Below, in pieces: positions 5,376 through 43,923 of a stretch of 64,000 bases of DNA. The stretch comes from Pseudomonadota bacterium (GTDB lineage Bacteria; Desulfobacterota; Binatia; Binatales; Binataceae), in the NCBI GenBank assembly GCA_021323945.1, contig JAJPKA010000002.1:124001-188000 (forward strand), written 5' to 3'. Under the pieces are notes generated by a model. That model searched no databases and was not told the DNA's origin. It was given only the letters and a program-made list of their open reading frames with translations. The first letter of the stretch is position 1. Each line of letters opens with the position of its first letter. A program made the position numbers and the translations under genes.

Positions 5376-6913
5376 GTGCTAGCCAGCGTGATGTCCAGTG
5401 CGATCGCCGGGGTCGACGCGTTTCCAGTCGAGGTCGAGGTTGACTGCGGCAGTGGCGCGCCAAGCTTTCGGATGGTGGGGCTGCCGGAAGGAGCGGTTCG
5501 CGAGGCTTTCGACCGTATCAAATCAGCTATACGGAACTCTGGTTATGCCTTCCCGAGCGGCCGAACGACCGTCAACCTGGCCCCAGCTGATACCCGCAAG
5601 GAAGGCTCTGCCTTTGATTTGCCAATGGCACTTGGCATCCTCGCCGCGGCGAACCACGGGACTCTCGCAAACCGCGACCGCTTAGCCCGCTACCTTGTGC
5701 TTGGAGAATTGGCGCTCGACGGGAGGGTTAAAGGCGTGAAAGGAGCCCTCCCCAGTGCCTTGCTGGCTCGGTCTCTACGCCTAACCGGAATTGTGGTGCC
5801 GCGCGAGAATGCCGCCGAGGCTGCGGTGGCAGGTGAAGGTGTGGCAGTTCTTGGGGTCGACACGCTCCGCGAGGTCGTCGAATTCTTTGATGGCTGCCGT
5901 GAGATTGCGCCCACCGCGATCGACCTCAATGCAATTTTCGAGGACGCCAGCCGCTATGACCTTGATTTCAACGAGATCAAAGGCCAGGAACAGGCGAAGC
6001 GTGCCTTTGAAGTCGCTGCCGCGGGCGGCCACAACATCCTAATGATAGGCCCGCCCGGGTCCGGGAAGACTATGCTGGCTAAGCGTCTTCCCACTATCTT
6101 GCCGGCGATGACTTTCGATGAAGCAGTCGAGAGCACCAAGGTCCATAGCGTCGCAGGGATGCTGGATGGTCGAGCGCTGATCGCAACACGCCCGTTTCGT
6201 TCACCTCATCATACAATTTCCGATGCCGGGCTTATTGGTGGTGGTCCGTTCCCGCGCCCTGGCGAGGTAAGCCTGGCACATAACGGTGTCTTGTTTCTTG
6301 ACGAGCTGCCAGAATTTCGCAAAAACGTGCTAGAAGTCTTGCGGCAGCCGCTCGAAGACCTGCGCATCACTATCGCGCGGGTAATGGGTACCGTAACCTT
6401 CCCAGCCAGCCTCATGCTCGTAGCGGCGATGAACCCGTGCCCTTGGGATTCTACACCGATTCTCAGCACGAATGCTCCTGTACCCCGGTTATGATCGAAC
6501 GGTACCGGTCGCGCGTTTCGGGGCCACTACTCGACCGGATTGACATCCATATCGAAGTGCCTGCTGTCAGATATCGAGATTTGGTCGACAAGAGCCGCGG
6601 CGAGAGTTCCGCTGCCATCCGGGAGCGAGTCAATCGAGCGCGCCAGGTACAGCTGGCTCGCTTTCGGAATACCAAGCTGTATTGCAATGCCCAAATGGGG
6701 GCACGTGAACTGCAAGCCTGGTGCGGTGTAGATTCGGCGGGTGAACGGTTGCTTGAGCTCGCGGTAAATCGGCTTGGACTAAGCGCGCGAGCGTATACGC
6801 GCATCCTCAAGGTGGCCCGGACCATCGCCGACCTAGATGCCAGCGACCGTATTGAGGCGGCGCATCTGAGCGAAGCAATACAGTACCGTTCCCTAGACCG
6901 CATGAGAGTATAA
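5376..6913 (+). pseudogene. comM: comM/YifB-type AAA+ Mg-chelatase-like ATPase, broken by a single-base frameshift
   Basis: ComM is a hexameric helicase that promotes branch migration during natural transformation. Its domains are in order: an N-terminal LonC-like domain ([17 protein letters not shown]), Walker [11 protein letters not shown], Walker [12 protein letters not shown], and a C-terminal Mg_chelatase_C region (SGPLLDRIDIHIEVP ... LDRMRV). The reading frame stops at 6494 with an aberrant tail and resumes in the next frame from about 6437. Exactly at the break the invariant NPCPCG zinc motif reads NPCPW in one frame and LGFYTD in the other; adding one base after 6445 restores NPCPCGFYTD and a protein of 512 residues, the normal length. 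The start is the GTG at 5376, preceded by CGGAGGGA. Either a recent pseudogene or a sequencing error. Confidence 0.88.
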
Positions 6914-19870: not shown

Positions 19871-20986
19871 ATGGCGAAGGCGCGAGCGGCGGTTCAGGTC
19901 GGACCCAAGCATTACGAGATCCGAGAGTTCGAAATCCCCAAGATTGGTACCAACGACGCCCTTATGCGGGTCGAAGCGTGTGGCCTGTGCGGCAGCGATG
20001 TCGACCAGTACGATGGCAAACTCGACGCGATGGGTCTCATCTTACCTGTTATTCCTGGACATGAGCCAGTTGGCATCGTTGAGGAGATCGGCTTCGAAGC
20101 TGCGCGCCGATGGGGAGTAAGGGTAGGCGACCGTGTGGCAATCGAACCGACTCTCGGCTGCGGGCGATGCCGCGCTTGCATGACAGGCAATTATCGAAGG
20201 TGTCGCGTCGGTCGACCGGGTACCAGGCTGACCGCTTGCGGCTTCATCCCCACGTCGGTTGAGCCTTCCCTCTGGGGAGGAATCGCTGAATACATGTATC
20301 TCGACCCTAATGCAGCAGTACATAGGATTGCCCGTGACATCCCCGCCGAACTCGCCGTTTTGTTTCAACCTCTTGCCGCGGGCATCAGCTGGGCGCATCG
20401 CGAGCCAGGTACCCGGATCGGTGACACAGTTGTAATTTTTGGCGCGGGTCAGCGCGGCTTGACCTCGGTCATTGCCGCGCGCGAAGCCGGCGCCCGCTCA
20501 GTCTTTGTGGTCGGGCGTCGTCAGAGCGCTCATCGTTTGGCGCTGGCGCGCACTTTTGGCGCCGATGAGATCATTTTCAGTGATGAAGACGTCGTTCAAC
20601 GCGTGCGTGCATTGACACATGGCGAAGGCGCCGACGTGGTCCTCGACGTTACTGCGGAAACACTGACACCCGTCACTGTGGCGATCGACATTGTACGGCC
20701 CGGCGGAACCATCGTTCTGGCCGGCGTCAAGGGGCCTGGGGCTCAATTGCAGGGCATCGAACACGATCGAATTTTCGCCAAGGAACTGACCATCAAGGGC
20801 GTCAAGAATGCCGATTTCCTTTCATTTGAGATCGCCGTCAGGCTGATTGAATCGGCAAAATATCCGCTCGAAAAGATGCATACGCACAGTTTCGGATTGG
20901 CGGATCTCGAGCAGGCGCTGCTCACGCTCGCTGGACGAGTCCCGGGCGAGAATGCGATCAGTGTGTGTATCGATCCTGCGCTTTGA
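19871..20986 (+). CDS. Zinc-dependent alcohol dehydrogenase (MDR superfamily)
   Basis: A 371-residue medium-chain dehydrogenase. The catalytic zinc site is formed by ACGLCGSDVDQYDG (Cys) and PGHEPVG (His-Glu). The structural zinc site is CGRCRACMTGNYRRC. The Rossmann part contains VVIFGAGQRGL, typical for NAD(P) binding. It oxidises or reduces an unidentified alcohol/aldehyde in the cytoplasm. The ATG at 19871 is three bases inside a possible GTG; AAAGGAA lies upstream. A cyclase-family gene follows 59 bp downstream, suggesting a shared pathway. Confidence 0.92.
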   Translation: MAKARAAVQVGPKHYEIREFEIPKIGTNDALMRVEACGLCGSDVDQYDGKLDAMGLILPVIPGHEPVGIVEEIGFEAARRWGVRVGDRVAIEPTLGCGRCRACMTGNYRRCRVGRPGTRLTACGFIPTSVEPSLWGGIAEYMYLDPNAAVHRIARDIPAELAVLFQPLAAGISWAHREPGTRIGDTVVIFGAGQRGLTSVIAAREAGARSVFVVGRRQSAHRLALARTFGADEIIFSDEDVVQRVRALTHGEGADVVLDVTAETLTPVTVAIDIVRPGGTIVLAGVKGPGAQLQGIEHDRIFAKELTIKGVKNADFLSFEIAVRLIESAKYPLEKMHTHSFGLADLEQALLTLAGRVPGENAISVCIDPAL

Positions 20987-21045
20987 AACCGCTTCCCGCC
21001 AAGGGTTTCTCGGCAGGAGAACTTCCGCCAGGAGGTGAGCAGTGT

Positions 21046-22007
21046 ATGGCTGACAAGACAATCAGCGAGGTATTAAAGGACGCGCCTCGCAATTGGGGGC
21101 GATGGGGAGCGAACGACGAAATCGGCGCGTTAAATTTCCTCACCAGTGAGGAAGTATTGCGCGGCGTCAAAGCCGTGAAGCAGGGTCGTGTTTTTATGCT
21201 AGGAGTGCCAGTCGCGCGTCCTCAGGGTGATCCAACTCACCCGATTCGGTCCCAACCGATCCATACCCTGACGATGGACGAGGGTTTCTATCTCAGTGGA
21301 CGAGCTAAGCCTTTTCCCGGCGGGCTGAAGTATTCCGACGATGTTATTACTATGTTTCCTCAAAGCACCACGCAGTACGACGCACTCGGACACGCGTGGT
21401 ATGGCGATCACCTTTATAACGGCTATGATCCGAAGACAACGATTGGCGGATTGCAGAAATGCTCGATTCAACCGATAGCTGAACACGGCATAGTCGGACG
21501 CGGAATCCTGCTCGACGTGGCCGCTTTAAAGGTAAGAAGCATCTCGACCGAGGCGAGGGCGTGACCCTGACTGACCTGCTCAATACGGCTAAACGCCAGG
21601 AAGTCATGATCGAAAAACACGATATCCTCGTTTTACACACCGGATGGCTCAACCGCTATTACGAAGAAGGGCCACAAGCGCTCTTTCCACCAGGGGTCGA
21701 TTATGATGAGCCGGGTCTCGAATATAGTCGCGATCTGGTGGAGTGGTTTCACGAGATGGAGATCCCTTCGATCAGCGCCGACACGATTGGCTGCGAACAG
21801 GGTGTCAACCGCGAGTTGGGCAGCGTTGGCTTGCTGCACGCTGCTCTGCTGTGCAATTTAGGCGTAGTTTTTAACGAAATCGTCTGGCTAAAAGACTTGG
21901 CCGATAGTTGCGCGGCTGACCGCCAATATACCTTCCTCTTCGCCGGTGCTCCACTCAAGTTGGTGTTTGGGTGTGGCTCCGCAGTGAATCCGATTGCGAT
22001 CAAGTAA
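21046..22007 (+). pseudogene. Cyclase family protein (kynurenine-formamidase-like), single-base frameshift
   Basis: The ATG at 21046 (with AGGAGGTGAGC upstream) begins a cyclase-family (PF04199) protein: WGANDEIGALNFLTSEEV, then TQYDALGHAWYGDHLYNGY with the metal-binding Asp/His set. The frame ends at 21564 and continues in another frame from about 21533 (TLTDLLNTAKRQEVMIEKHDILVLHTGWL ... SADTIGCEQG). At the break ALKVRS replaces the expected ALKGKKHLDRGEGVTLTD; one extra G in the GG at 21531-21532 restores it and gives a normal 320-residue protein. The substrate of this branch is unknown. Either an error in a G run or a genuinely split gene. Confidence 0.85.
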
Positions 22008-23073: not shown

Positions 23074-24135
23074 CTACTTAAGCCCACAGACCGCCGGCAT
23101 TACCTTAGCCGCAAAACGCTCCATAGCCGCCATTACTTCTTTATGAGGTATCAGTCCTCCGGGATTGAACCAGCAGACGAGCTGGTTTATTCGTGCACCT
23201 TCGTGGATTTTATTGATGCGTTCAATGCATTGTTCGGCTGCGCCGAACACCCCCATCGTTTCGCATACTTCCTCCCAACCGATTCGGGCGGCTCGTTCGC
23301 GCACCTGCCGGAGATACTGATATGATGCTTCATACTGACCCCGGCCTCCGGCCTTGGCTTGCTCACCAATGGTTCGAAAATAATGCATTAGAGAGGGTTC
23401 GAATTGCATTCGTACCTGCTCGATGCCCTCACCCGCAGTGACGAAAAAGAGCGCTGCCACGTCCCGAATCTGCGCGTCATGAGCAGCGCGCCGGAGCGCC
23501 TCACGATACCTGCCTACATGCTCGAAGAAGCCCGGCATCGGGTTGATCGGTGATGCCACCAGGATGTCGTAGTTATGAAGACCCGCGAATTCCGCAGTCT
23601 CCCGACTATTGGCAGCAATTCGCACTGGAGGATGCGGCTTCTGTAGCGGCTTTGGTGCGACTCCGGTCTCAGGAAACTTAAAGTATCGACCGTGGTGCGC
23701 GAAATGATCTTTGGTCCACGCCTCGATAATCACTTCAAGTTCCTCTTCGAAGCGGGCACGGCTTTCTTCACGGCATACGTCAAAGCCTTGGAAGTGGAGC
23801 GCAATAGTGCCCCGGCCGACGCCTACGTCCAGGCGGCCCCCTGTCAGAATATCCGCGACCGCCGTTTCCTCCGCAATGCGCAAAGGGTGATGGAAGGGCA
23901 GCAAGATCACGCCTGTGCCAAAACGGATCCGGCGCGTTCGTTGCGCGGCAGCCACCGCGACCAAAAGCGGCGCGGGCATAACCGAGAAAGCACGGAAGAA
24001 ATGTAGCTCTGCCAGCCACGCCACGTCGTAGCCGAGCTGGTCGGCGAAGACGATCTGGTCGATGGTCTCCTGGTAGCGTACTGCCTCGGCTTGATGGGGA
24101 GCACATGGTAGCTGATAGAAAAGACCAAAGCGCAC
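23074..24135 (-). CDS. LLM class flavin-dependent oxidoreductase (luciferase-like)
   Basis: A 353-residue bacterial-luciferase-family barrel. It begins MRFGLFYQLPCAP, has RIRFGTGVILLPFHHPLRIAEETAVADILTGGRLDVGVGRG, the FMN/F420-binding signature, and KPLQKPHPPVRIAANS in the middle. Members use reduced FMN or F420 for oxygenation or hydride transfer. The GTG start at 24135 follows AAGGAGAG. It is last in a minus-strand series after the Amt gene (114 bp gap), though functional linkage to ammonium is not expected. Confidence 0.92.
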   Translation of the reverse strand: MRFGLFYQLPCAPHQAEAVRYQETIDQIVFADQLGYDVAWLAELHFFRAFSVMPAPLLVAVAAAQRTRRIRFGTGVILLPFHHPLRIAEETAVADILTGGRLDVGVGRGTIALHFQGFDVCREESRARFEEELEVIIEAWTKDHFAHHGRYFKFPETGVAPKPLQKPHPPVRIAANSRETAEFAGLHNYDILVASPINPMPGFFEHVGRYREALRRAAHDAQIRDVAALFFVTAGEGIEQVRMQFEPSLMHYFRTIGEQAKAGGRGQYEASYQYLRQVRERAARIGWEEVCETMGVFGAAEQCIERINKIHEGARINQLVCWFNPGGLIPHKEVMAAMERFAAKVMPAVCGLK

Positions 24136-24249: not shown

Positions 24250-25623
24250 TCAGACGTTGGGATAAGCCTCGCTGCCCATTTCCAGTGCATCGAGGCCGTT
24301 CCATTCAACTTCGGCTGGTACCCGATTACCCACTGTGCGGTCGAGCAGAACGAAGAACGTCATCGCCGCACCGAAAATCAGAATCAGGTTAGCAGCGATG
24401 CCGACAAGTTGAGCAATCAACTGACCCAGATCTCCCGTAATCAGGCCCCGCACCGGTCCGGAGACGCCGTTCCATCCGTCGCCGTAACTTCCATCGGCGA
24501 AGATGCCTACTGCCAACGCCCCCCACAAGCCACACACCAGGTGAACAGCGATGGCACCTACCGGGTCATCGATGCGAAGACGTTGCTCAAGGGTGCGAAC
24601 GCCACTAACCACCAGAAAACCGGCGATAACCCCGATCAGCACCGCCGATGCGGCCGAAACGAAGGCACATGACCCTGTGATTGCAACTAAGCCCCCCAGT
24701 AAACCGTGGCAGGCCATCGCTATATCCGGCCTATTGTAACGGAGCTGCAAGTACAGGATCGCGGTAAGTGAGCCAGCCGCCGAAGCCAGCATCGTGTTAA
24801 CGGCCACCGCCGCGATCTGTGGATCGGAGCCCGCCAGCGTAGACCCGGTGTTCAAGCCGAACCAGGCAAATGCGAGTATGAGGGTGCCGCTCATCGCCAA
24901 AGGCAAGTTGTGACCAGCGATCAGTCCAATGCCCCCATCTCGGCGAAATTTCCCGATCCGAGGCCCCAGCACCATCGCGCCGGCCAATGCAGTTACCCCG
25001 CCGGTCATGTTCACCACCGTAGCACCGGCAAAATCAACATGCCCATGGCCGAGGCCAAAATTAACGCCCAACTGCGCCAGCCAGCCCCCGCCCCAGACCC
25101 AATTTGCATACAATGGGTAAAGAAACATTGACATGAAGAATCCGTAAAGCATGAACGCGGAAAATTTCCACCTTTCCGCCATTGCGCCAGTCGGAATCGT
25201 GGCGGCCACGGTCATGAATACACTCGCAAACAGAAACATCGCTTGGCTGGCCGCGTCATGACTTACGGCTAACAAGGCAAATTTCTCGAGGCCAATCAGC
25301 CCGAACCGATGCCCTGCAAAGTACAAACCCAGTTCCCGATGGGCTAGACCGAACGCTCCCAGCGACGGCCACTGTTGGACCCCTCCCACCATAAAGCCGT
25401 AGCCGGTCAGCCAGAAACCAAGCAGACCCACCGGATAGATGATGAGGTTCATGGCCATCGTGTTCACCGCGTTCTTGGCTCGGGTTAGGCCTGTCTCGAG
25501 CAACCCAAAACCGAGTTGCATCAACATTACGAGAAACCCCGCAAACAGCACCCAGGCAAGGTTAAAGCTAACGACTATCGCGCCCGCCCGCGCTTGCTCC
25601 AGCGTCTCTACACCGAGTGTCAT
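24250..25623 (-). CDS. amt: Ammonium transporter (Amt/MEP family)
   Basis: A 457-residue protein with about eleven membrane segments. Family strings include LVMLMQLGFGLLETGLTRAKNAVNTMAMNL near the N-terminus and VDFAGATVVNMTGGV. The second pore histidine is kept (H361 in IAVHLVCGLWGAL), but the first twin-His position is N205 in TVVNMTGG where AmtB has His168. It would conduct NH4+/NH3 across the inner membrane. No adjacent glnK is present. It follows the Ser/Thr kinase gene on the same strand (89 bp). Confidence 0.93.
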   Translation of the reverse strand: MTLGVETLEQARAGAIVVSFNLAWVLFAGFLVMLMQLGFGLLETGLTRAKNAVNTMAMNLIIYPVGLLGFWLTGYGFMVGGVQQWPSLGAFGLAHRELGLYFAGHRFGLIGLEKFALLAVSHDAASQAMFLFASVFMTVAATIPTGAMAERWKFSAFMLYGFFMSMFLYPLYANWVWGGGWLAQLGVNFGLGHGHVDFAGATVVNMTGGVTALAGAMVLGPRIGKFRRDGGIGLIAGHNLPLAMSGTLILAFAWFGLNTGSTLAGSDPQIAAVAVNTMLASAAGSLTAILYLQLRYNRPDIAMACHGLLGGLVAITGSCAFVSAASAVLIGVIAGFLVVSGVRTLEQRLRIDDPVGAIAVHLVCGLWGALAVGIFADGSYGDGWNGVSGPVRGLITGDLGQLIAQLVGIAANLILIFGAAMTFFVLLDRTVGNRVPAEVEWNGLDALEMGSEAYPNV

Positions 25624-25712: not shown

Positions 25713-26729
25713 CTATCTCGCCTCAGCATGCGACGGATTGTGCACGCCGAAATTTGCTGCTGGATAACGGTTTGCCAGCCAGATCAGGAAACCAAACACT
25801 GCGGCCAGAGAAACGAAGAAGAAAGCTCCCCAGAAAATACGTTTCACCCGCAGGCTCGCGAGGCTGCGCGGGTGCAGTCGCCTTGCTCGCCCCGTTACGA
25901 CTACCTGATTGGGGTCAGCGAGATCTCGCAGCATCTCTGAGGCGCTCTGGTAACGGTCACGTGGCTGACGCGCGATAGCGTGCAGGATTAGCTCTTCGAG
26001 ATGAGGATCAAAATCCGCCCGGTAACGAGAAGGCGGTTGCGGATCTTCACTGCTCTTAGCGCGCATAATTGCATAAACATTCTCGCCGGCAAACGGCAAT
26101 TTGCCGGTTAGGAGCTCATAAAGGATGGTCCCCAGCGCATAGATGTCGGTTCGCGCGTCCCCGCGCCGTCCGCTGATCTGCTCGGGCGCCATGTAATCCG
26201 GCGTTCCGATGGTGGACGACAGGCCTGACCAGGTCAGTCGCCGCGCAGACTCATCCAAGGCGATACCGAAATCCATGATTTTAACCTGTCCGCTTTCTGT
26301 CACCAGGATGTTCTCGGGTTTCAGATCGCGATGGACAATGCCCTGGCCATGCATATAAACCAACGCGCTACAGATCTGACGTGCGATATCGAGTGCGCTA
26401 GCGGTGTCGAACACGCCTTTATCCCGCATCATCGCACGCAGGGAAATCCCATTGACATACTCCATCGCAATATACATCCGGCTTTTTCGCTGCGGGCGCA
26501 GCACACGGATAATATTGGGATGGTCGAGTCGACGGCCGATCTCTTCCTCACGTTGGAAGCGGCCATAAAACACCACGTCGCTTTCGAACTGCAGATAGGG
26601 GACCTTGATGGCGACGATCTCGCCGGTGGTCAGATCGCGGGCCTTGAAGATTGAGGCCATGCCGCTGCGTGCAAGCAACTCGGTAAGCTCGTACTGGTCG
26701 AGCTTTTCGCCAACATTGACCTCACGCAT
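25713..26729 (-). CDS. Membrane-anchored Ser/Thr protein kinase (Hanks type)
   Basis: A 338-residue eukaryotic-like kinase. The phosphate-binding loop is degenerate (LLARSGMASIFKA instead of GxGxxG). The ATP-anchoring Lys42 is in VAIKVPY, the catalytic loop is H133RDLKPEN, the DFG motif is at 153-155 and APEQ is in the activation segment. One transmembrane helix near 298-318 follows the kinase domain, with a short periplasmic tail and no PASTA repeats. The kinase lies 91 bp downstream of a PP2C phosphatase gene, a common pair in reversible signalling. Confidence 0.94.
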   Translation of the reverse strand: MREVNVGEKLDQYELTELLARSGMASIFKARDLTTGEIVAIKVPYLQFESDVVFYGRFQREEEIGRRLDHPNIIRVLRPQRKSRMYIAMEYVNGISLRAMMRDKGVFDTASALDIARQICSALVYMHGQGIVHRDLKPENILVTESGQVKIMDFGIALDESARRLTWSGLSSTIGTPDYMAPEQISGRRGDARTDIYALGTILYELLTGKLPFAGENVYAIMRAKSSEDPQPPSRYRADFDPHLEELILHAIARQPRDRYQSASEMLRDLADPNQVVVTGRARRLHPRSLASLRVKRIFWGAFFFVSLAAVFGFLIWLANRYPAANFGVHNPSHAEAR

Positions 26730-33213: not shown

Positions 33214-33726
33214 ATGAACCGCGTAATAATCCCTATTGCTTTGCTTCTGTTTGCAGGTGGAGTTGTCACGGTTGCTTTCTCGCAACGCCCCTGGGCACCG
33301 CGTTCCGATGTCGAACAGCCAATCCCGTTTAGTCATCGGGTCCATGCCGGAATCAACAAGATTCCGTGCCAGTACTGCCACGAATACGCCCGAAGGTCGT
33401 CGATGTCTGGGGTGCCGCCGGTTGAACGCTGCGTCGGCTGTCATGGCAGCGCTCTGCTCGGTGGGATTCAGCCGATTACCCGGCCGTGGACCGACCACCG
33501 CCAACCACCGTTCGAGATTCGCTGGAATAGAGTCTACGCCCTACCCGACTTCGTAAAGTTTGTGCATAAGCCCCACATATGGGCAGGCGTCGCGTGCCAG
33601 GAATGCCACGGACCGGTTGAGACCATGGACCGGGTAGTGCCCGTTTACGAAATTAATATGGGTTTTTGCATCGATTGCCACGTCAAGCGCGGTGCGACCC
33701 AGGAATGTTTTGTGTGCCATCACTGA
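33214..33726 (+). CDS. actA: Alternative complex III subunit A, pentahaem cytochrome c
   Basis: A 170-residue protein with an N-terminal membrane anchor (IIPIALLLFAGGVVTVAF) and five CxxCH haem sites at about 52 (CQYCH), 73 (CVGCH), 128 (CQECH), 152 (CIDCH) and 165 (CFVCH). Five haems and this size match ActA of the quinol:cytochrome c oxidoreductase called alternative complex III. It passes electrons from the Fe-S protein ActB to downstream c-type acceptors on the periplasmic face. The operon start is directly followed by actB 13 bp later. Confidence 0.95.
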   Translation: MNRVIIPIALLLFAGGVVTVAFSQRPWAPRSDVEQPIPFSHRVHAGINKIPCQYCHEYARRSSMSGVPPVERCVGCHGSALLGGIQPITRPWTDHRQPPFEIRWNRVYALPDFVKFVHKPHIWAGVACQECHGPVETMDRVVPVYEINMGFCIDCHVKRGATQECFVCHH

Positions 33727-33739
33727 GCGAGGAATCGAA

Positions 33740-36715
33740 ATGTCAGAGGGGCTATCGAGGCGGTCATTTATCAAGCTCGCGGCCACGGCCGGAGCGGCTG
33801 CCGCGCTCCCGGGGTGTGAACCAGCGGCGCGCAAGATTATTCCCTATGTCGTTCCGGACGAAAACGTAATCCCCGGGGTCCCAACTTTTTATGCGACTAC
33901 GTGCAACGAATGCCGGGCCGGCTGTGGGATTGTCGCCAAAGTGCGCGAAGGGCGGGTGATAAAGCTCGAGGGCAATCCGGCCGACCCGATCAGCCAAGGT
34001 TCAATTTGCGCGCGCGGGCAAGCCGCCCTGCAGGGGCTATACAATCCCGACCGTCTCGCCACGCCAATGACTCGTCGGGCAGACGGCTCTCTGCAGGAAA
34101 TCTCCTGGGAGGAAGCCATCCATCAGTTTAATGCTCGCCTGCAGAGCGCTGCGCAGTCTGGAAAGAATCGAATCGCGTTTATCGGCTCCTCGCAAGGGCC
34201 CGCACTGGACAACATTACCCGGCTTTGGCTCCAGACCTGGGGTTCAGAAAGACTGGTGTTTTGGGAGCGGATCGGTGAGGAAGCCGCGCGCGCCGCTGCG
34301 CAGGCGTGTTTCGGCCGACGCGACCTGCCCATTTATCGATTCGACCTCGCTGAGGCGATTGTCTCCTTCGGTGCGGATTTCCTGGAAACTTGGGGCTCGC
34401 CCGTGGAATATGCCCGTCAATATGCCGAGTTTCGCCGACCGAAATTGCGCAATGGCACACTGTCAATCGGCAAATGCGCTTATATCAGTCCTCGCTTAGG
34501 CACCACCGGGGCACGGGCTGACCGTTGGGTTCAGGCCTATCCAGGTACCGAGGGCCTGGTCGCGATGGGTGTCTTGAACGCAATCGTAAATCAGGGATGG
34601 TTTGCGCGCGATACAGAGATTGACCTGGGAGCGCTAAAGGAATTCGTCAGTGGCTACGATCCTCACAGCGTGAGCGAAGCGGCCGGCATTCCGGTGGAGG
34701 TAGTCACCAGCCTCGCTTCGTGGCTCGGCCAATCCAACAGTGCGCTGGCAGTTGCCGGTGGCGATGATTTGCAAACTTATATTGCCGCCTATCTGCTTAA
34801 CGCGGTTACCGGTAACCTCGGCCGCACTCTGGTTTTTCTCGAGGATTCGCCCCCCGAGGCGCTTACGCCACCACAAGACGCAGCCGAGGTCGTGCAGTCC
34901 ATCCATGATGGCCAGGTCGACGTGGCAATTGTTGCGGGAGGCGCTAACCCAGCCTATTCGATGCCAGCCGCGTGGAACGTGGCCGCGGCACTCAAACGCG
35001 TGCCGTTTTTGATATGGATGGGCGAGGTTCCCGACGATAGCGCGCAGGCCGCTCACCTGCTTATCCCGACTCACCATCCACTCGAGACTTGGCGTGACAG
35101 TCATCCCCGTGCTGGTGTTCACCAGGTTGGCCAGCCGGTGATGCAGCCCGTTTTCGACAGCCGCCCACTTCATGACATCCTGATCCAGTCCGCGCATTTG
35201 GCCGGCGGCACTGCGGGTCAGCAAATTCCCTGGGAAAACTCTGCCGATGCGGTTAACGCGGCCTGGCAGCAACTGCAGAGCAAGCTTGCGCCAGACACGA
35301 ATCCGACCGAGTTCTGGAGTCAAGCCCTCCGCACCGGTGGCGCGTACCAAGAGGCCCAGGCGCGTAAGGTTACGCTTGATCAGGCAATCCTCCGCCGGAA
35401 GCTGCAGTTCCGTTCGGCCGCCCCCGAGAATCTGATGCTAGCTGCCTTCCCGCATATTTTTCTTTACGACGGGCGTGGGGCCGATAAGCCCTGGCTCCAG
35501 GAAATTCCCGAGCCCGTAACCCAGATCGTGTGGGATACCTGGATCGAAATGCATCCAGAGACCGCGCGCCAGATCGGCCTCAAACAGAATTATGACACTC
35601 GCTACCTCTACGCTGGAATCAACGTCGTCGAAGTGAGTACTCCTAACGGCAGCTTTGAAGCTGCCGTCCACATCACGCCGTTGGTCAGGCCCGGCGTCTT
35701 AGCCGTTCCCATCGGCCAGGGCCACTCGGCCTATGGGCGCTATGCCAAGGACCGTGGCGTCAATCTCTGGGCCTTTTTGCCAGAGGCCAGCCGCAGTGTA
35801 CCGGTCCAAGTTCGGCTGACCGAAAAGCGCTACATGCTTACCACGCCGCTGGGCAACAGCGACATGATGGGGCGTTCGGTGATTGAGGCGATGAGCCTGG
35901 AAGAACTCACCGCCGGTAAACAACCCGAGGTTGAGCGTGAGGCTCAAGAAGAAATGCCATCTGGGCCGTACGAGATGTACGATCCAATTCGATACCCGGG
36001 CTACAAATGGGGCATGACGATCGACGTCAACGCCTGCACCGGTTGCAGTGCCTGCGTTGCCGCATGCTACGCGGAGAATAACCTGGCGATCGTGGGCAAG
36101 GAGCGCGTTCAGGAAGGCCATATCATGTCCTGGCTGCGGATTGAACGTTTCATCCCGTCCCCCGAGGAAGCCCATAAGGCTCCCAATCTCTATCTCGCTC
36201 CGATCCTTTGTCAGCATTGTGACCACGCACCTTGTGAACCCGTCTGTCCGGTATTCGCTTCGGTGCATACCCGCGAAGGACTAAATGCGCAAATCTATAA
36301 TCGTTGCATCGGTACGCGTTTTTGCGAAAACAACTGCCCCTACAAAGTTCGGCGCTTCAACTGGTTCGCTCCTGAGTGGCCCGAGCCGATGCACCTCCAG
36401 CTCAATCCCGATGTGACCGTGCGTGGCGCCGGGGTGATGGAAAAATGCACCTTCTGTATTCAGCGCATCACTGCAGCCGAGATCGACGCTCGCACTGAAG
36501 GGCGGGAGTTAAAAGACGGGGAAGTCATCACCGCGTGCGCACAAGCATGCCCCACGCGAGCCATCACCTTTGGTAATCTCAATGACCACAATAGTGCGAT
36601 GGTGAAGCGGCGAGTCGAGAACAAACCGCGAGCCTACACGATGCTGCCGCAGCTGAACGCATTGCCGCAAATCACCTATTTGCGCTCAATTTATCACACG
36701 ACGGAGAACTTGTGA
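33740..36715 (+). CDS. actB: Alternative complex III subunit B (molybdopterin-like plus Fe-S domains)
   Basis: A 991-residue ActB, a fusion of a MopB-type domain and a polyferredoxin domain, with a twin-arginine leader LSRRSFIKLAATAG. The first part contains a C-x2-C-x3-C...C cluster motif (C55, C58, C62, C90). The second part, from about 755, has NACTGCSACVAACY, CQHCDHAPCEPVCP, CIGTRFCENNCPY, CTFCIQRI and CAQACPT, enough for four clusters. It is periplasmic after Tat export. The ATG at 33740 is the natural start (upstream frame would duplicate the end of actA). It ends overlapping actC (TGATG). Confidence 0.95.
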   Translation: MSEGLSRRSFIKLAATAGAAAALPGCEPAARKIIPYVVPDENVIPGVPTFYATTCNECRAGCGIVAKVREGRVIKLEGNPADPISQGSICARGQAALQGLYNPDRLATPMTRRADGSLQEISWEEAIHQFNARLQSAAQSGKNRIAFIGSSQGPALDNITRLWLQTWGSERLVFWERIGEEAARAAAQACFGRRDLPIYRFDLAEAIVSFGADFLETWGSPVEYARQYAEFRRPKLRNGTLSIGKCAYISPRLGTTGARADRWVQAYPGTEGLVAMGVLNAIVNQGWFARDTEIDLGALKEFVSGYDPHSVSEAAGIPVEVVTSLASWLGQSNSALAVAGGDDLQTYIAAYLLNAVTGNLGRTLVFLEDSPPEALTPPQDAAEVVQSIHDGQVDVAIVAGGANPAYSMPAAWNVAAALKRVPFLIWMGEVPDDSAQAAHLLIPTHHPLETWRDSHPRAGVHQVGQPVMQPVFDSRPLHDILIQSAHLAGGTAGQQIPWENSADAVNAAWQQLQSKLAPDTNPTEFWSQALRTGGAYQEAQARKVTLDQAILRRKLQFRSAAPENLMLAAFPHIFLYDGRGADKPWLQEIPEPVTQIVWDTWIEMHPETARQIGLKQNYDTRYLYAGINVVEVSTPNGSFEAAVHITPLVRPGVLAVPIGQGHSAYGRYAKDRGVNLWAFLPEASRSVPVQVRLTEKRYMLTTPLGNSDMMGRSVIEAMSLEELTAGKQPEVEREAQEEMPSGPYEMYDPIRYPGYKWGMTIDVNACTGCSACVAACYAENNLAIVGKERVQEGHIMSWLRIERFIPSPEEAHKAPNLYLAPILCQHCDHAPCEPVCPVFASVHTREGLNAQIYNRCIGTRFCENNCPYKVRRFNWFAPEWPEPMHLQLNPDVTVRGAGVMEKCTFCIQRITAAEIDARTEGRELKDGEVITACAQACPTRAITFGNLNDHNSAMVKRRVENKPRAYTMLPQLNALPQITYLRSIYHTTENL

Positions 36716-38079
36716 TGGCAGCCGCCGTTGAGACCGACCTCCAGCCCCGCTACATCGACGTCGATCGTCAGGTTCAGCGCGCGATGGCTCCCGGCGGTTT
36801 GACTTATTGGCTTTGGGTGCTGTTTTGCGCCTTCCTGACCGCCCTCGGCATCGGCTTTTGGACTAACCAAGTATATAAGGGCCTCGGCGTAACTGGTCTG
36901 ACCGAACCCACGATGTGGGCACCGTATATCACGAATTTCGTCTTCTGGGTTGGTATTGCACACTCGGGGACCCTAATCTCGGCGATCCTGTTTCTTTTCC
37001 GTACCCGATGGCGAACAGCGATCTACCGCTGTGCAGAAACGATGACGGTCTTCGCAGTGGCAACCGCCGGGCTTTTCCCGCTGATTCATTTAGGTCGCCT
37101 GTGGTTTTTTTATTTCGTGGTCCCCTACCCGAACGAACGCTACCTGCAGCCTGATTTCCGCTCACCACTGGTCTGGGACTTTTTTGCAATCGGAACCTAT
37201 CTCACCATCAGCACCGTGTTTCTGTTCACCGGGCTGATTCCCGATTGTGCCAATGCGCGCGAGGTGGCGACCGGCTGGCGCAAGACCCTTTACAGTATCT
37301 TTTCCTTCGGCTGGCAAGGGACCGACCGGCAGTGGCGCAATTTTCAGATGGTCTACCTGCTATTGGCAGGTTTCGCCACCCCTCTGGTCCTGTCGGTGCA
37401 CAGCGTGGTGTCCTGGGATTTCGCGATGACTCAGCTACCCGGATGGCACAGCACGATCTTTGCGCCGTATTTTGTCGCCGGCGCGATTTTTTCCGGCTGC
37501 GCACTGGTACTAACCCTGATTATCCCGATACGCAAGTTCTGGAGGCTGGAGGACGTAGTGACTATTTGGCATCTCGACAATCTTGCCAAAATTGTCCTGT
37601 TCACTTCGCTGATCATAACGTATTCCTATAGCGTCGAATCGTTCATGGTATGGTACTCGCAGGATCCGCTTGAACTGGCTACTTTCCACCAACGCTACTT
37701 CGGGCCGCAAGGTTACTTTTTCTGGATCATGGTGGTCTGCAACTGCGTCATTCCACTTCTGCTGTTCAGTCCTCGCGTGCGCACCAACACCGTGTGGCTG
37801 TTCATCATCTCTATCTTTGTAAACATCGGAATGTGGCTGGAGCGTTTCGTCATCATCGCCGGCTCACTCGCTACCAATACCATGCCGTCGCAATGGCGCT
37901 TCTATACGCCGCACGTGACTGAAATAGTAATCACCGCGGCGAGCTTCGGATGGTTTCTGATGAACTTCTCGTTATTTGCCAAGTTCATGCCGATCGTCTC
38001 GATGACCGAAATGAAAGAAGGAATAAGCTGGCTGCGGCAGGCGGTTCGCACACGTTATCCCTACAGGAAAGCAGCATGA
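36715..38079 (+). CDS. actC: Alternative complex III subunit C, NrfD-like quinol-binding protein
   Basis: About 454 residues and ten membrane helices of the NrfD/PsrC family. GGLTYWLWVLFCAFLTALGIG begins the first helix, and VFWVGIAHSGTLISAILFLFR matches the ActC quinol region; MVYLLLAGFATPLVLSVHSVVSWDFA follows. It oxidises quinol and passes electrons to ActB. The ATG at 36715 overlaps the actB stop, and the 3' end overlaps actD in ATGA. Confidence 0.95.
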   Translation: MAAAVETDLQPRYIDVDRQVQRAMAPGGLTYWLWVLFCAFLTALGIGFWTNQVYKGLGVTGLTEPTMWAPYITNFVFWVGIAHSGTLISAILFLFRTRWRTAIYRCAETMTVFAVATAGLFPLIHLGRLWFFYFVVPYPNERYLQPDFRSPLVWDFFAIGTYLTISTVFLFTGLIPDCANAREVATGWRKTLYSIFSFGWQGTDRQWRNFQMVYLLLAGFATPLVLSVHSVVSWDFAMTQLPGWHSTIFAPYFVAGAIFSGCALVLTLIIPIRKFWRLEDVVTIWHLDNLAKIVLFTSLIITYSYSVESFMVWYSQDPLELATFHQRYFGPQGYFFWIMVVCNCVIPLLLFSPRVRTNTVWLFIISIFVNIGMWLERFVIIAGSLATNTMPSQWRFYTPHVTEIVITAASFGWFLMNFSLFAKFMPIVSMTEMKEGISWLRQAVRTRYPYRKAA

Positions 38080-38618
38080 GCGAAGTCGCGGTAATTTCGA
38101 CCTTCGGCAATGACGACGATTGTGCGCGCGGAATTCTCGCTTTGCACCACGCCCGCATCCACGATTTCCGAGCTTTCTTTCCGTTCCCGAGCGAAAAGAT
38201 CATCGAGGCGGTGAATCATGTCCGCGGCTGGGGCCGCAGTCCGGTTCGGTACTGGCAGCTCTTTGGCGGAATAATTGGTGTGCTAAGCGCAATCGCGCTG
38301 ACCTTCGGTACGTCGTGGGAATGGAACCTGATTGTGGGTGGCAGACCGATCATTTCGGTGCCGCCCTACATAGTCATCATGTTTGAGCTGATGATTCTAA
38401 TTGGCGGCCTCTCAGGTCTTACCGGGTTTTTCCTGCACAGTCGCATGCCGGTGTTCGATCCTCTGCCTGGCTACCGTTCACGCTTTAACGAAGATAAGTT
38501 TGGGCTGGTCGTCGAATGTGATGAGACTGCCGCAAGTAGAATTGAATCGGTCCTGCGCGACGCCGGCGCCGAAGAGGTTACGCGAGAAGCCCTCGAACCT
38601 GTCAGAGATAATCACTAG
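38076..38618 (+). CDS. actD: Alternative complex III subunit D (DUF3341)
   Basis: A 180-residue DUF3341 protein with two membrane helices (LFGGIIGVLSAIALTFGTSW and PYIVIMFELMILIGGLSGLT) and a conserved FPFPSEKIIEAVNH and FVLH-like region. It starts with the ATG overlapping actC. It is a peripheral-membrane structural subunit of alternative complex III. The next gene starts 35 bp later; the usual small monohaem actE between actD and actF is missing. Confidence 0.93.
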   Translation: MSEVAVISTFGNDDDCARGILALHHARIHDFRAFFPFPSEKIIEAVNHVRGWGRSPVRYWQLFGGIIGVLSAIALTFGTSWEWNLIVGGRPIISVPPYIVIMFELMILIGGLSGLTGFFLHSRMPVFDPLPGYRSRFNEDKFGLVVECDETAASRIESVLRDAGAEEVTREALEPVRDNH

Positions 38619-38653
38619 CTCGCGAGTACAGATACACTGAGACAATCCTGAGT

Positions 38654-39892
38654 ATGGAAAAGGCAGCAACTTCTCGTGAACCGGCTTCTTTAGGGGCGGC
38701 AGCTGTCCGCTCCCTGCGCGAACCCGTACAAGTCAACTGGGCGCCACTGACGACGCTCGGCATGGTACTGATTGTGATCGGAATTGCTGGCTTCGTGTTG
38801 GCTTTGAGTCTCGGCCGCAGCCAGCGAGTTTGGGAGATCTGGCTGGTCAATTTTCTGTATTTCAATGGTATTGCGCAGGGTGGGATCGTCTGCTCCGCCG
38901 CGTTTTACCTGACTCAGGCGCGATGGGCAGGGTCTACCCACTACCGGATGGCTGAGGCTTTCAGTCTTTTTCTGGTGGTGGGATTTATTCTTTTCTGGGG
39001 AGTGTTCATTGGCCGATTATCGATCTTCCCTTGGATTCTCCATCCATCGCCCAAACAGCAGATTTGGCTTAACACCCCCTTTCTTTTTGCCCGCGATGGA
39101 TTTGCCCTATTGATAATGACCGTGGCCAGCCTGTGGTTCGTGACACTGTCCCGCAGTCAAGAGGCTCGCTCATGGGCCAGCCGCTTCGGTGAAATCGATA
39201 TGCCGCCAGTGGCTATTCGGCGGCTCGCGCCGATCGTGGCAATACTTTATTGCGTGGTCTACTCGCTGCTGGCATTCGACCTGATTATGTCGCTTTCCCC
39301 CAAGTGGCACAGCACCTTATTCGGCTGGTGGTATTTTGCAACGGATTTTTGGAGTGCGACCGTCGCACTCGGTCTGATGGCGGCGATTTTCCGACGCCTG
39401 TTCGGTCCCGCCACTACCGCCACCGCGCCCGGAGTGCTCCACGACATTGGCAAAATGATCTTCGCCTTTTCAATCTTCTGGGTATATACGGGGTTTGCTC
39501 AATACCTGGTCATCTGGTACGGCGATATCCCCACCGAGACCTTCTTTATCGTCCAACGGTTCTGGCATCAGCCTTGGACCCTGTTATCCTGGTCGACTCC
39601 GATTCTGATCTGGGTGATCCCGTTCCTCGTACTCTTGGGAGTCCGGCCCAAGCGAACTCCGGCAATACTGGGGACGGTTTCATTGCTGGGTCTTATTGGC
39701 GTCTGGATTCTGAACTTTGTTCTGGTAGTTCCCTCGTTGTCCCGCGACCAGCTTCCCTTTGGTTGGATTGAGTTGACCATCACGGCTGGGTTCCTGGGTG
39801 CCTTTCTGATCTGCGCAATACCGGGACTGAAGCGGGTGGCAACCGCAGCCTTTGAGCCGGTATCAGCTGAGCTGCAGCCCCGAATGGAGTAG
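38654..39892 (+). CDS. actF: Alternative complex III subunit F, NrfD-like membrane protein
   Basis: A 412-residue membrane protein with about ten helices, related to but distinct from ActC. Family strings include WEIWLVNFLYFNGIAQGGIVCSAAFYL, FLFARDGFALLIM and FWGVFIGRLSIFPWIL. It forms the second NrfD-like half of the quinol oxidoreductase core. The ATG at 38654 follows a short 35-bp spacer. It ends 5 bp before coxB. Confidence 0.93.
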   Translation: MEKAATSREPASLGAAAVRSLREPVQVNWAPLTTLGMVLIVIGIAGFVLALSLGRSQRVWEIWLVNFLYFNGIAQGGIVCSAAFYLTQARWAGSTHYRMAEAFSLFLVVGFILFWGVFIGRLSIFPWILHPSPKQQIWLNTPFLFARDGFALLIMTVASLWFVTLSRSQEARSWASRFGEIDMPPVAIRRLAPIVAILYCVVYSLLAFDLIMSLSPKWHSTLFGWWYFATDFWSATVALGLMAAIFRRLFGPATTATAPGVLHDIGKMIFAFSIFWVYTGFAQYLVIWYGDIPTETFFIVQRFWHQPWTLLSWSTPILIWVIPFLVLLGVRPKRTPAILGTVSLLGLIGVWILNFVLVVPSLSRDQLPFGWIELTITAGFLGAFLICAIPGLKRVATAAFEPVSAELQPRME

Positions 39893-39897
39893 GATTG

Positions 39898-40941
39898 ATG
39901 ACGGCACCTTTGCGGAGATCTGCTCTGGTCAGCGCCCTGGCTGTGACCACCGCAGTTGTTGTTGGTGGGTGTAAGCCAAGCAGGCCTTATCCTCTCGACA
40001 CTCTGGCACCAACCTCCGATCTGACCAAAGCCTTTTACGACCTCTTTGTCGAGGTCACGGTTCTCGATATCATCGTTTTGATCGTCGTAGTCGCCGCGTT
40101 GTTTCTGGCTATTGCCTTTTTTTCCACTCGGACAGGCGCGGCACGGCGACCCTCGGTCAAGCACTCCGATATGTACCTGGAGATGGCTTGGACGATCATC
40201 CCGGCGTTGATTCTGTTGGCGATCACGGTTCCGACCGTCCGCACTATCATAAAAACTCAGCCGTACTCGTGGCCCAAAGACGCGCTGCCGGTTGAAGTGA
40301 TTGCCCATCAGTGGTGGTGGGAGTTTCATTATCCGACGTTGGGGGTGGAAACTGCGGATGAAGTCCATATTCCGACTGGCCGGGTAATCCATTTCGAATT
40401 GTTTTCGAAGGATGTGATTCACAGCTTCTTCATGCCTCAGGTTGGCGGTAAACGCGATGTTATACCCGGACAGGAAAATCAGATAACTCTGGTAGCGAAT
40501 GTGCCGGGTGAATACTATGGACAGTGTACGGAGTTTTGCGGAGATTCGCATGCGAACATGAGGTTTCGGGTCTTCGTCCAGTCGCCGGCGGATTTTCAGG
40601 AGTGGGTGAAACATCAACTGGAACCGCCAGTGAAGCCGACCTCCGGCCCGGCTGCTGCGGGAGCAAAGGTTTTCGCCAATGCGCCGTGTGCGATTTGTCA
40701 CACGATCCGGGGAGTCTCAGGCTTTTCCAAGCAATATACCTATGGTTTTCGCGGACCTGACCTGACCCATTTCGGCAGCCGTACAACTTTGGCGGGTGCC
40801 ATCATGGACAATACTCCTCAGAACGTGGCGGTGTGGATCCGTAACCCGGATGAAGTTAAGCCGGGCGCCAACATGCCGACCCTCGGCCTCAGTGGTCGCG
40901 AATTGAACGAATTAGTCGCTTATTTGGAAGCCTTGAAGTAG
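39898..40941 (+). CDS. coxB: Cytochrome c oxidase subunit II with C-terminal cytochrome c domain
   Basis: A 347-residue lipoprotein-type subunit II (lipobox GGC, Cys25) with two helices (FVEVTVLDIIVLIVVVAALFL; MAWTIIPALILLAITVP) and the CuA domain. CuA ligands are in QCTEFCGDSHANM with an earlier His in VIHSFFMP. The C-terminal cytochrome c domain has CAICH and a Met in GANMPTLG, making it a caa3-type subunit. Electrons from ActA could enter at this haem. An ATG at 39898 is preferred over TTG three bases earlier. Confidence 0.96.
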   Translation: MTAPLRRSALVSALAVTTAVVVGGCKPSRPYPLDTLAPTSDLTKAFYDLFVEVTVLDIIVLIVVVAALFLAIAFFSTRTGAARRPSVKHSDMYLEMAWTIIPALILLAITVPTVRTIIKTQPYSWPKDALPVEVIAHQWWWEFHYPTLGVETADEVHIPTGRVIHFELFSKDVIHSFFMPQVGGKRDVIPGQENQITLVANVPGEYYGQCTEFCGDSHANMRFRVFVQSPADFQEWVKHQLEPPVKPTSGPAAAGAKVFANAPCAICHTIRGVSGFSKQYTYGFRGPDLTHFGSRTTLAGAIMDNTPQNVAVWIRNPDEVKPGANMPTLGLSGRELNELVAYLEALK

Positions 40942-40949
40942 GACAGACC

Positions 40950-43412
40950 ATGGCTGCGCAACCAAGACCCTTATATGTACGCGAGCTCAGTTATCTCGAA
41001 GGCGGCGGTATCTATGGTTGGTTAACGACAATCGACCACAAGCGAATCGCGGTGCTCTATGGAGTCACGGCGCTCGTGATGCTGGTGCTCGGGGGATTCG
41101 AGGCGCTGATGGTGCGCACTCAGTTAATGGTCCCGAACAATCATTTTCTGACCGCGCAGCAATACAATCAGTTCTTCACGATGCATGGTTTGACGATGAT
41201 TTTTCTCGTCATCATGCCCCTGGAGACCGGGTTTTTTGGCAACTTTCTCATCCCCCTTCAGATCGGGGCGCGGGATGTCGCCTTTCCCCGCCTGAATGCA
41301 CTTAGCTACTGGATTTTCCTGCTCGGTGCCATCACCATCAACCTCGGCTGGATTTGGGGTGGGTTGCCCAACGATGGCTGGTTCGGCTACGCCAATCTGA
41401 CCGAAAAATTCTACTCGCCCGGTCTCAATATTGACTTTTATGATGTGGGCCTGTTGATCCTCGGCGTTTCGTCGGTAATGAGTGCGCTTAATTTCTTCGT
41501 CACCATCATCAATATGCGCGCTCCCGGGATGACCTTCTTCCGCATGCCGATGTTTATCTGGTCGCTGCTAGTTACGACCATCCTCATCCTGCTCGCTTTT
41601 CCCGCGTTGACGGTGGGACTGATCTTCCTCTTCATGGATCGGTACTTCGATACGCACTACTATCGCGTGATTGCGGGGGCGACGCCCATCCTTTGGCAGC
41701 ATCTGTTCTGGATCTTCGGCCATCCGGAAGTCTACATAATGATCCTGCCGGCTTTTGGCTTGATCTCCGAAATCATTCCTGTGTTCTCCAATAAGCCGCT
41801 GTTCGGCTATCCGATGATGGCTTATTCGCTAATCCTCATCGCATTTTTGTCCTATGGCGTCTGGGGCCATCATATGTTCGCTACCGGCATGGGGCCGATT
41901 GCTGACAGCACGTTTGCAATCACCTCGATGCTCATCGCAATACCCACGGGGATTAAGATCTTTTCTTGGGTTGCGACAGTATGGGGCGGCCGGCTCCAAT
42001 TTTCAACGGCCTTTCTGTTCGCTCTGGCCTTTGTGATTCAGTTCACCATCGGCGGCCTGAGCGGCATTATGCATGCCAGTCCTCCGATCGACCTCCAGCA
42101 AACCGATAGCTATATTATCGTCGCCCATTTCCATTACGTGCTTGGACTAGGCGCACTTTTCGCCATCCTTGGAGCGTTGTACATGTACTGGCCGAAGATC
42201 ACCGGCCGCATGCTCAACGAGAAGCTGGGCAAACTGAACTTCTGGTTGGCGGTTTGGTCGTTCAACGCGACATTTTTCCCGATGCACTTCCTCGGTGAAC
42301 TCGGCATGCCCAGACGCATTTATACCTATGCTCCACATATGGGTTGGGATTTTTGGAATTATTGGGAAACGATCAACGCTTACATAATTGCCCTTTCGTT
42401 TGTTGTTCTGGCGATCAACGTCTGGTGGAGCCTGAGATACGGTGAGCGCGCTACTGACGATCCGTGGGATGCCCGCACTCTTGAGTGGTCAGTTCCAACA
42501 CCGCCGCCGGTTTACAACTTCGCAACGGTGCCAACGGTTACCGCGCGCGATGCTTTCTGGGTAGCTAAGTATGGCAGCGTCGAGGCAACCGGACTGGAAC
42601 CCGTCAACGTTGCTGCAATAGCCCCGTCGACAGCCCCGGACCCGGGCAAGATCCATATTCCCGCACCATCGTTATACCCAGTGCTGATTGCTTTGGGGCT
42701 CTTTGGAATGGGAATCGGAGTGCTCGTCGAGTGGTATCGCGTTGTTCTCATCGGGGCCGCCCTGATGGTAATTTCGGCAATTTCGATGGCTTTCGAATAT
42801 CCAACATGGGGGCGTGAAGACCCGCATGCGGTAGCTGAAAGCTTTCTCGGTTTGGATAGCCGCAAAATCGGCATCTGGAGCTTTATCGGTTCGGAATGCG
42901 TTTTCTTCGCGAGCCTCATTTCCACTTATATGGTTTATAAGGCCCGCAGCACAGGACCCTTCGACGCTGACATCTTGAATATTCCGCTGACCTCCTTCAG
43001 TACGTTTATTCTCTTGATGTCTAGCCTGCTGATGGTCTTGGCGCTGGCCGGCTATCAACGTAATGACAAATTTTGGGGCACTTTCTGGCTCATTGGTACA
43101 GCAATCTTTGGCTGCATCTTCCTTGGGGGCCAGGTCTACGAATTTGGCGATTTCTGGCTGAATGAAGGTATGCTATTCAACAGCAACCTATTCAGTCAGT
43201 GTTTTTACACTCTAGTCGGCTTCCACGGGTTCCACGTCTTTATTGGAGTTTGTTGGCTCTTGACGCTAGCGGTCGCGGGGATCAGAGGCAAAATCGATAG
43301 CAAGAGATCACTGGCGGTCGAGATTGGTGGCCTCTACTGGCATTTTGTCGATATCGTGTGGGTAGTAATTTTCACTTTGGTGTACCTGATGAGGACAATC
43401 AAACACGCATGA
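40950..43412 (+). CDS. coxA: Fused cytochrome c oxidase subunits I and III (A1-type)
   Basis: An 820-residue fusion. Residues 1-540 are subunit I: haem a ligand H79 (MHGLTMIF), Cu-B/Tyr site GHPEVY at 257-262 with the A1-type glutamate, WGHHMF at 305-310, and HFHYVLG for haem ligands. Residues ~570-820 are subunit III: IWSFIGSECVFFASLI, FNSNLFSQCFYTLVGFHGFHVFIGV and GLYWHFVDIVWVVIF. Together with coxB it is a complete proton-pumping caa3-type oxidase. Fusion of I and III is known in Thermus and some other phyla. It follows coxB by 8 bp and overlaps the next gene in ATGA. Confidence 0.96.
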   Translation: MAAQPRPLYVRELSYLEGGGIYGWLTTIDHKRIAVLYGVTALVMLVLGGFEALMVRTQLMVPNNHFLTAQQYNQFFTMHGLTMIFLVIMPLETGFFGNFLIPLQIGARDVAFPRLNALSYWIFLLGAITINLGWIWGGLPNDGWFGYANLTEKFYSPGLNIDFYDVGLLILGVSSVMSALNFFVTIINMRAPGMTFFRMPMFIWSLLVTTILILLAFPALTVGLIFLFMDRYFDTHYYRVIAGATPILWQHLFWIFGHPEVYIMILPAFGLISEIIPVFSNKPLFGYPMMAYSLILIAFLSYGVWGHHMFATGMGPIADSTFAITSMLIAIPTGIKIFSWVATVWGGRLQFSTAFLFALAFVIQFTIGGLSGIMHASPPIDLQQTDSYIIVAHFHYVLGLGALFAILGALYMYWPKITGRMLNEKLGKLNFWLAVWSFNATFFPMHFLGELGMPRRIYTYAPHMGWDFWNYWETINAYIIALSFVVLAINVWWSLRYGERATDDPWDARTLEWSVPTPPPVYNFATVPTVTARDAFWVAKYGSVEATGLEPVNVAAIAPSTAPDPGKIHIPAPSLYPVLIALGLFGMGIGVLVEWYRVVLIGAALMVISAISMAFEYPTWGREDPHAVAESFLGLDSRKIGIWSFIGSECVFFASLISTYMVYKARSTGPFDADILNIPLTSFSTFILLMSSLLMVLALAGYQRNDKFWGTFWLIGTAIFGCIFLGGQVYEFGDFWLNEGMLFNSNLFSQCFYTLVGFHGFHVFIGVCWLLTLAVAGIRGKIDSKRSLAVEIGGLYWHFVDIVWVVIFTLVYLMRTIKHA

Positions 43413-43750
43413 ACGAGCACGCAGCAGAAGGCGCGGTCGGACGCGCTCATCCGGTCGAAGAGCATCATCCGCAGGCGCCAACCTATATTGTTGTCGCAAT
43501 TATCCTGACCATCCTAACTGCATTCGAAATTGGCGTATTTTATGCCCCATTTCTGCAGGCGATACTGGTACCACTTCTAATTATCCTTGCAATTCTAAAG
43601 TTTATCCTCGTCGCTGCCTTTTACATGCATTTGCACTTTGATAGCAGGGTTTACTCCGGACTCTTCTTGTTCCCATTGGCGTTGGCAGCTTTGATTGTCT
43701 TTTCACTGATGTTGCTGTTTTATTCGCTGGGTGAACATACGGCATTGTGA
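43409..43750 (+). CDS. Cytochrome c oxidase subunit IV family (CoxD-like) protein
   Basis: A 113-residue protein with three hydrophobic helices (PTYIVVAIILTILTAFEIGVFY and two more) and KFILVAAFYMHLHFDSR, the COX4_pro motif. A small structural subunit that stabilises the oxidase. Its ATG overlaps the stop of the fused subunit I/III gene. Confidence 0.9.
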   Translation: MNEHAAEGAVGRAHPVEEHHPQAPTYIVVAIILTILTAFEIGVFYAPFLQAILVPLLIILAILKFILVAAFYMHLHFDSRVYSGLFLFPLALAALIVFSLMLLFYSLGEHTAL

Positions 43751-43788
43751 CTGCGCTTGCTTTCCGTGTGGATTCTCAAGTCCCTCTT

Positions 43789-43806
43789 GTTTCTTCTTGA
43801 AGAAAC
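43789..43806. promoter_or_regulatory. 18-bp near-perfect palindrome between subunit IV gene and ctaG
   Basis: GTTTCTTC at 43789-43796 and GAAGAAAC at 43799-43806 are an exact inverted repeat with a 2-base centre, too tight for an RNA hairpin but typical of a dimeric protein binding site. Confidence 0.35.
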
Positions 43807-43923
43807 TCGATGACATAATGCTGTTGTCGAAGGATTCAGCTGTCGCGCGGCATTGAGGTAGATCATCGGTGAAAATCGTAAACCCACGCCTGCGCGGCGA
43901 AGCGGATGTAGCCGCTTCTGATT

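Follow-up and report, generated by a model that had tools for sequence, protein, structure and literature searches.

The locus described here raises the question of what an ammonium transporter (Amt) still does when the first of its two pore histidines has been replaced by asparagine. The window, meaning the whole stretch of DNA analysed, is 64,000 nucleotides long and comes from an uncultured bacterium. The variant Amt was found in two genomes only, that of the window and that of one congener. Its gene occupies positions 24250..25623 on the minus strand and encodes an Amt/PF00909 ammonium transporter-like protein of 457 amino acids, as defined from the open reading frame, profile matches and a predicted model. 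The first-pass annotation had named an AmtB-type ammonium transporter, leaving the strand unstated, and the profiles bear this out: the protein is a full-length Amt that matches PF00909 with 352 bits (cut-off 23.2) and TIGR00836 with 357.8 bits (cut-off 343.3). An AlphaFold model built from a 50-row alignment (pLDDT 94.3, pTM 0.93) superposes on AfAmt-1 (2b2f) with Z 58.1 and an rmsd of 1.3 Å over 390 residues, with 6eu6 and Sd-Amt1, both of them sensor Amts, and AmtB next in rank. In this predicted model the Amt fold takes up residues 8-457. A domain search of the protein returned PF00909 alone, with no fused signalling or output domain, and the chain ends at residue 457 with an Amt tail. By homology the protein is an Amt, and its sequence lacks two hallmarks of the classical twin-His/Phe-gate kind.

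These hallmarks were located by alignment with solved Amts and with E. coli AmtB. The AmtB H168 site, the first pore histidine, is N205 (AAC, 25009..25011), and the AmtB H318 site, the second pore histidine, is retained as H361 (CAC, 24541..24543), exactly as had been proposed from the sequence at first pass. Three phmmer alignments to solved Amts, 6eu6 and Sd-Amt1, pair N205 with the first pore histidine, and the alignment that includes E. coli AmtB sets N205 on H168 and H361 on H318. The change is larger than first claimed, as L257 and H306 accompany N205 in the same two proteins. L257 (TTG, 24853..24855) stands at the AmtB F215 site, the inner Phe-gate, and H306 (CAC, 24706..24708) at the AmtB S263 site at the cytoplasmic exit, a position that is Asn in each of the 28 other-genus orthologues. 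The AmtB I110 site is V139 (GTG, 25207..25209), and is Thr in the family orthologues from other genera that cover it. All five codons are read from the minus strand. Since the pair formed by the first histidine and exit sites is N205/H306 in the genus and His/Asn in the other-genus orthologues, the His/Asn pair has been swapped.

The remainder of the conduction path is familiar. The external binding site of AmtB (W148, D160, S219) is kept as W177, D197 and S261, and the outer gate F136 (AmtB F107 site) and W254 are also kept. Phe is thus found at the F107 site and replaced by Leu at the F215 site, and the first pore histidine is replaced by Asn and not by the Glu of the Mep1/Mep3 type. We placed S263 near the exit according to PMC3647058; in the simulations described there, the AmtB residues H168, H318, Y32, S263 and I110 hydrogen-bond the substrate.

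The rarity of these residues was evaluated using 283 other Amts. This set was assembled by similarity to the window Amt and includes only part of the phylum- and class-level matches, so that its own clade is sampled best and Amts at large are not represented at random; sequences that duplicated another exactly or were fragments contained in it were removed, and near-identical ones were kept. At site 205, His is present in 273 of the 274 other Amts with a residue there (nine are gapped, all of them fragments), and the sole exception, with Asn, is the congener. Site 257 is Phe in 274 of 275, the only Leu again being that of the congener. Site 306 is more variable (277 sequences: 246 Asn, 26 Ser, 3 Thr, 1 Ile and 1 His), and the single His is from the congener. 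The combination of N205, L257 and H306 is matched by the congener alone among the 283. The two proteins are 80% identical, and the genus comprises these two genomes in the set.

An orthologue with at least 67% identity is present in 30 of the 41 family genomes, and all 28 orthologues from other genera (23 + 5) have His, Phe and Asn at sites 205, 257 and 306. Each of the three changes corresponds to one base (CAC/CAT to AAC, TTC/TTT to TTG, and AAC/AAT to CAC/CAT). A large Amt clade with Asn had been named as a finding that would undo the interest of N205; no such clade was found beyond the genus among the 283 aligned sequences. The other objection raised, that the AAC codon is a sequencing error, was rejected: the separate assembly of the congener has the same codons at 205 (AAC) and 257 (TTG) and also encodes His at 306, and an identical AAC codon in two separate assemblies makes an error very unlikely. 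Judged from these sequences, Asn at the first pore histidine is beyond chance. In two other Amts a pore site is changed (Gln at the H318 column in L085, His at the F107 column in L141); we set both aside as unreliable because they are pieces of split reading frames.

Among the matches listed in searches of the open-access literature we found no description of a natural Asn at the first pore histidine or of the triple combination. Within their available portions, neither Asn nor asparagine occurs in PMC3647058 and PMC9040831, Asn does not occur in PMC10794816, and asparagine does not occur in PMC10433425.

In the phylogenetic tree the window and congener Amts form a group within the 31-tip clade of the family, and both groupings have a support of 1.0. 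Of 234 family-invariant Amt columns, ten are changed in both genus members, compared with 2 of 524 for the neighbouring kinase, phosphatase and permease taken together, a count that leaves out one gap (Fisher test, p = 2e-4). Four of the ten, at the H168, F215, S263 and I110 sites, belong to a six-residue conduction-path set made up of the five substrate-bonding residues of PMC3647058 and F215 (hypergeometric test, 3e-5, or 6e-4 using an 11-residue conduction-path set instead; both on 223 invariant Amt columns and with residue sets chosen after the changes were seen). Based on the sequences sampled, the changes are one genus-level remodelling, restricted to the genus.

Between the window and congener Amts, dN is 0.127 and dS about 1.8; because dS is saturated, the ratio of about 0.07 is known only roughly. 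For the same pair of genomes, dN is 0.136 for the kinase, 0.145 for the phosphatase and 0.062 for the permease. The low dN suggests that the protein was kept under constraint after the changes, as far as a saturated dS can show.

A reading under relaxed constraint would have the transport carried out by a second, canonical Amt while the window copy drifts with little function left. Other contigs of the window genome do carry a PII gene and a second Amt, whose four pore sites read H/F/S/H. The window Amt departs at 25 of the 234 family-invariant columns, at 15 of them alone, and of the 31 tips only that of a fragment is longer than its own. Moreover, at 12 of 18 other-genus loci an Lrp/AsnC-type regulator and a glutamate synthase large subunit are encoded downstream on the same strand, about 0.2 to 4.6 kb from the Amt; these neighbours are absent beside the Amt in the window and the congener, where glutamate synthase is found on other contigs. 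However, the reading frame is open in both genomes at the dN and dS given above, the congener departs alone at just 3 invariant columns, and the binding-site and pore residues W177, D197, S261, F136 and W254 are kept. A further Amt is likewise present in many other genomes of the family, yet these keep H and F in the orthologue of the window Amt. We consider loss of function by drift unlikely, while giving it real weight.

The reading we favour, to which we assign about an even chance, is that the gene encodes an Amt paralogue that still functions, with a conduction path rebuilt in the genus ancestor, gating and deprotonation being altered and conduction retained. In that ancestor the inner gate Phe would have become Leu and the first pore His would have become Asn, and a His would have been gained at the cytoplasmic exit site. 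With one histidine lost at the first site and one gained at the exit, the pair would lie one step nearer the cytoplasm, so that two pore histidines would be kept, at the H318 and S263 sites. A smaller gate residue and the lack of a first-site His could make ammonium deprotonation less strict, or move it later in the pore, and this may alter affinity or coupling and perhaps permit partial passage of NH4+.

Our grounds for this preference are published data on H168, twin-His and Phe-gate mutants. AmtB with the single substitutions H168A or H318A supports growth on ammonium and does not take up methylamine (PMC3647058). In AtAMT1;2 the inner gate mutant F271A shows full transport with lower isotope discrimination, read as NH4+ slippage (PMC6856177). 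The suggestion made at first pass that Asn may alter coupling is plausible in so far as H168 substitutions change mechanism or selectivity (PMC3647058, PMC9040831), but the argument does not depend on N205 alone, as the Phe-gate and exit changes accompany it.

Other mutants point the opposite way. EcAmtB F215A gave neither growth on ammonium nor methylamine uptake, and of 14 earlier engineered histidine variants H168E alone moved methylamine (PMC3647058). With AmtB H168D or H168E, growth of yeast at 1 mM ammonium was not restored within 3 days, or at most weakly, and the ammonium Km of these variants is near 13-14 mM as compared with 0.8 (PMC9040831). Useful transport may therefore have been lost in the window Amt as well, and in our analysis the growth results for EcAmtB F215 and H168D/E are the strongest arguments against retained conduction. 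EcAmtB F215L is partly rescued by W148L (Discussion of PMC6856177); the window Amt retains Trp (W177) at the W148 site.

The gene neighbourhood offers further evidence on function. Upstream of the Amt gene, and also on the minus strand, are a Ser/Thr protein kinase (PF00069) whose C-terminal part includes a hydrophobic stretch (25713..26729, after a gap of 89 bp), a PP2C-type Ser/Thr phosphatase (PF13672; 26821..27762, gap of 91 bp) and an amino-acid permease of the APC type (PF13520; 27815..29476, gap of 52 bp), all three assigned by domain match. The usual glycine loop of protein kinases is GxGxxG; in 20 sequences, the window kinase and its relatives, this loop reads ARSGMAS. We compared 19 related loci with wide flanks, out of 29 other family genomes with an orthologue. 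The kinase and phosphatase accompany the Amt in all 19, with the kinase adjoining, and the permease does so in 18, the contig of the nineteenth ending first.

A wider survey covered 169 loci and 41 more (L227-L267), and it undercounts the gene set because many loci had short flanks. It includes two further family genomes (L033, L213, both among the 169) with the kinase and phosphatase at the Amt. Outside these orthologue loci, the set was found in one Phycisphaerales contig (L064), with the kinase and phosphatase on the opposite strand, and, without the permease, in one genome from another family of the class (L235); in L068, L080 and L090 nothing beyond a weak, isolated kinase match was found. 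No description of a kinase/PP2C/Amt gene cluster was found among the matches listed from the open-access literature. The run of permease, phosphatase, kinase and Amt, often followed by the Lrp/AsnC regulator and glutamate synthase, is possibly a phosphorylation-controlled nitrogen-uptake cluster, in which the adjoining kinase and phosphatase would regulate the Amt.

The same genes could instead serve a receptor, in which the pore no longer conducts usefully and the protein binds ammonium and signals, perhaps via the adjoining kinase and PP2C phosphatase; a sensor had also been suggested at first pass. In line with this, the two genes are constant partners of the Amt, the solved structures closest to it in sequence belong to sensor Amts (6eu6 and Sd-Amt1), and F215A abolishes AmtB function (PMC3647058). 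However, the kinase and phosphatase also accompany Amts with normal pores and are thus no mark of a sensor by themselves, and the window protein consists of the Amt fold with no fused output domain. The sensor Ks-Amt5 retains both the twin-His and the Phe-gate (review PMC10433425), and in ScMep2 H194E and H348E signalling was lost while transport seems functional (PMC9040831). We regard a purely sensory role as rather improbable; this reading and decay of the window copy share most of the probability that remains beside the favoured one. Taken together, the sequences make it probable that the window Amt handles ammonium, by transport or by sensing, through an altered mechanism.

Downstream of the Amt, on the same strand, is a luciferase-like monooxygenase (PF00296 by domain match; 23074..24135). 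It adjoins the Amt in the window and the congener and is not adjacent in the 18 other loci, which have at most distant homologues elsewhere (30-33% identity); many relatives have other genes in its place. This association, specific to the genus among the loci compared, would fit a rebuilt pore that conducts another amine or a cation. Twin-His variants of AmtB and Mep2 let yeast use them for K+, and those of AmtB complemented yeast without ammonium and K+ transporters at limited K+ (PMC9040831). Yet H168D and H168E singly gave no K+ current in proteoliposomes (PMC9040831), and the loss of methylamine transport in the single H168A mutant (PMC3647058) also speaks against a changed substrate. The external binding site is kept in the window Amt, and the monooxygenase reached the cut-off of no NCBIfam model among the best 25 of 29. 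We therefore find a change of substrate very unlikely.

Elsewhere in the window, two overlapping plus-strand open reading frames in different frames (20965-21564 and 21561-22007), the second matching only model positions 75-141 of PF04199 (Cyclase), may represent a Cyclase gene split by a frameshift. Another frameshift is possible at 5376-6494 and 6437-6913, which we take to encode a YifB/ComM-like protein apparently split over two overlapping frames. The genes at 33214-44730 presumably form a run resembling alternative complex III, with cytochrome oxidase genes after it, as judged from the sequence.

Why both histidines and the Phe gate are retained in nearly all Amt pores is debated, and the evidence considered here comes mostly from engineered mutants and from the fungal Glu variant. 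A natural Amt, apparently under selection, that lacks one histidine and one gate Phe and has a histidine elsewhere is a ready-made test of what deprotonation, coupling and selectivity require. We speculate, at a likelihood well short of even, that this Amt represents a third natural way of conducting ammonium, in addition to twin-His and Glu-His pores: the histidine pair would have moved from the H168/H318 to the H318/exit sites, the inner Phe gate would have been removed, protons would be released nearer the cytoplasm, and a Ser/Thr kinase and a PP2C would be dedicated to setting the flux.

Compared with E. coli AmtB and other twin-His/Phe-gate Amts, the window Amt has the same fold, external site, outer gate F136, W254 and H361, but differs in its first pore Asn, inner gate Leu and exit His. 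It shares with fungal Mep1/Mep3 (PMC9040831, PMC3647058) a natural replacement at the first pore histidine, for which Glu is the only common natural variant (PMC3647058); it has Asn where these proteins have Glu. The inner Phe gate of the window Amt is changed too. Ks-Amt5 (6eu6) and Shewanella Sd-Amt1 (8qj3, 8qj4, 8qpf), its nearest solved relatives by sequence, are tied to signalling, whereas the window Amt has no fused kinase or output domain, and Ks-Amt5 keeps the pore residues that the window Amt has changed (PMC10433425).

The run of permease, phosphatase, kinase and Amt genes is a candidate bacterial case of Ser/Thr phosphorylation controlling nitrogen permeases. In yeast, permeases such as Mep2 are under the control of the Npr1 kinase. 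Unlike the yeast system, the bacterial run, with its putative role in regulation, includes its own PP2C, but in both cases ammonium and amino-acid permeases are found together with Ser/Thr phosphorylation genes.
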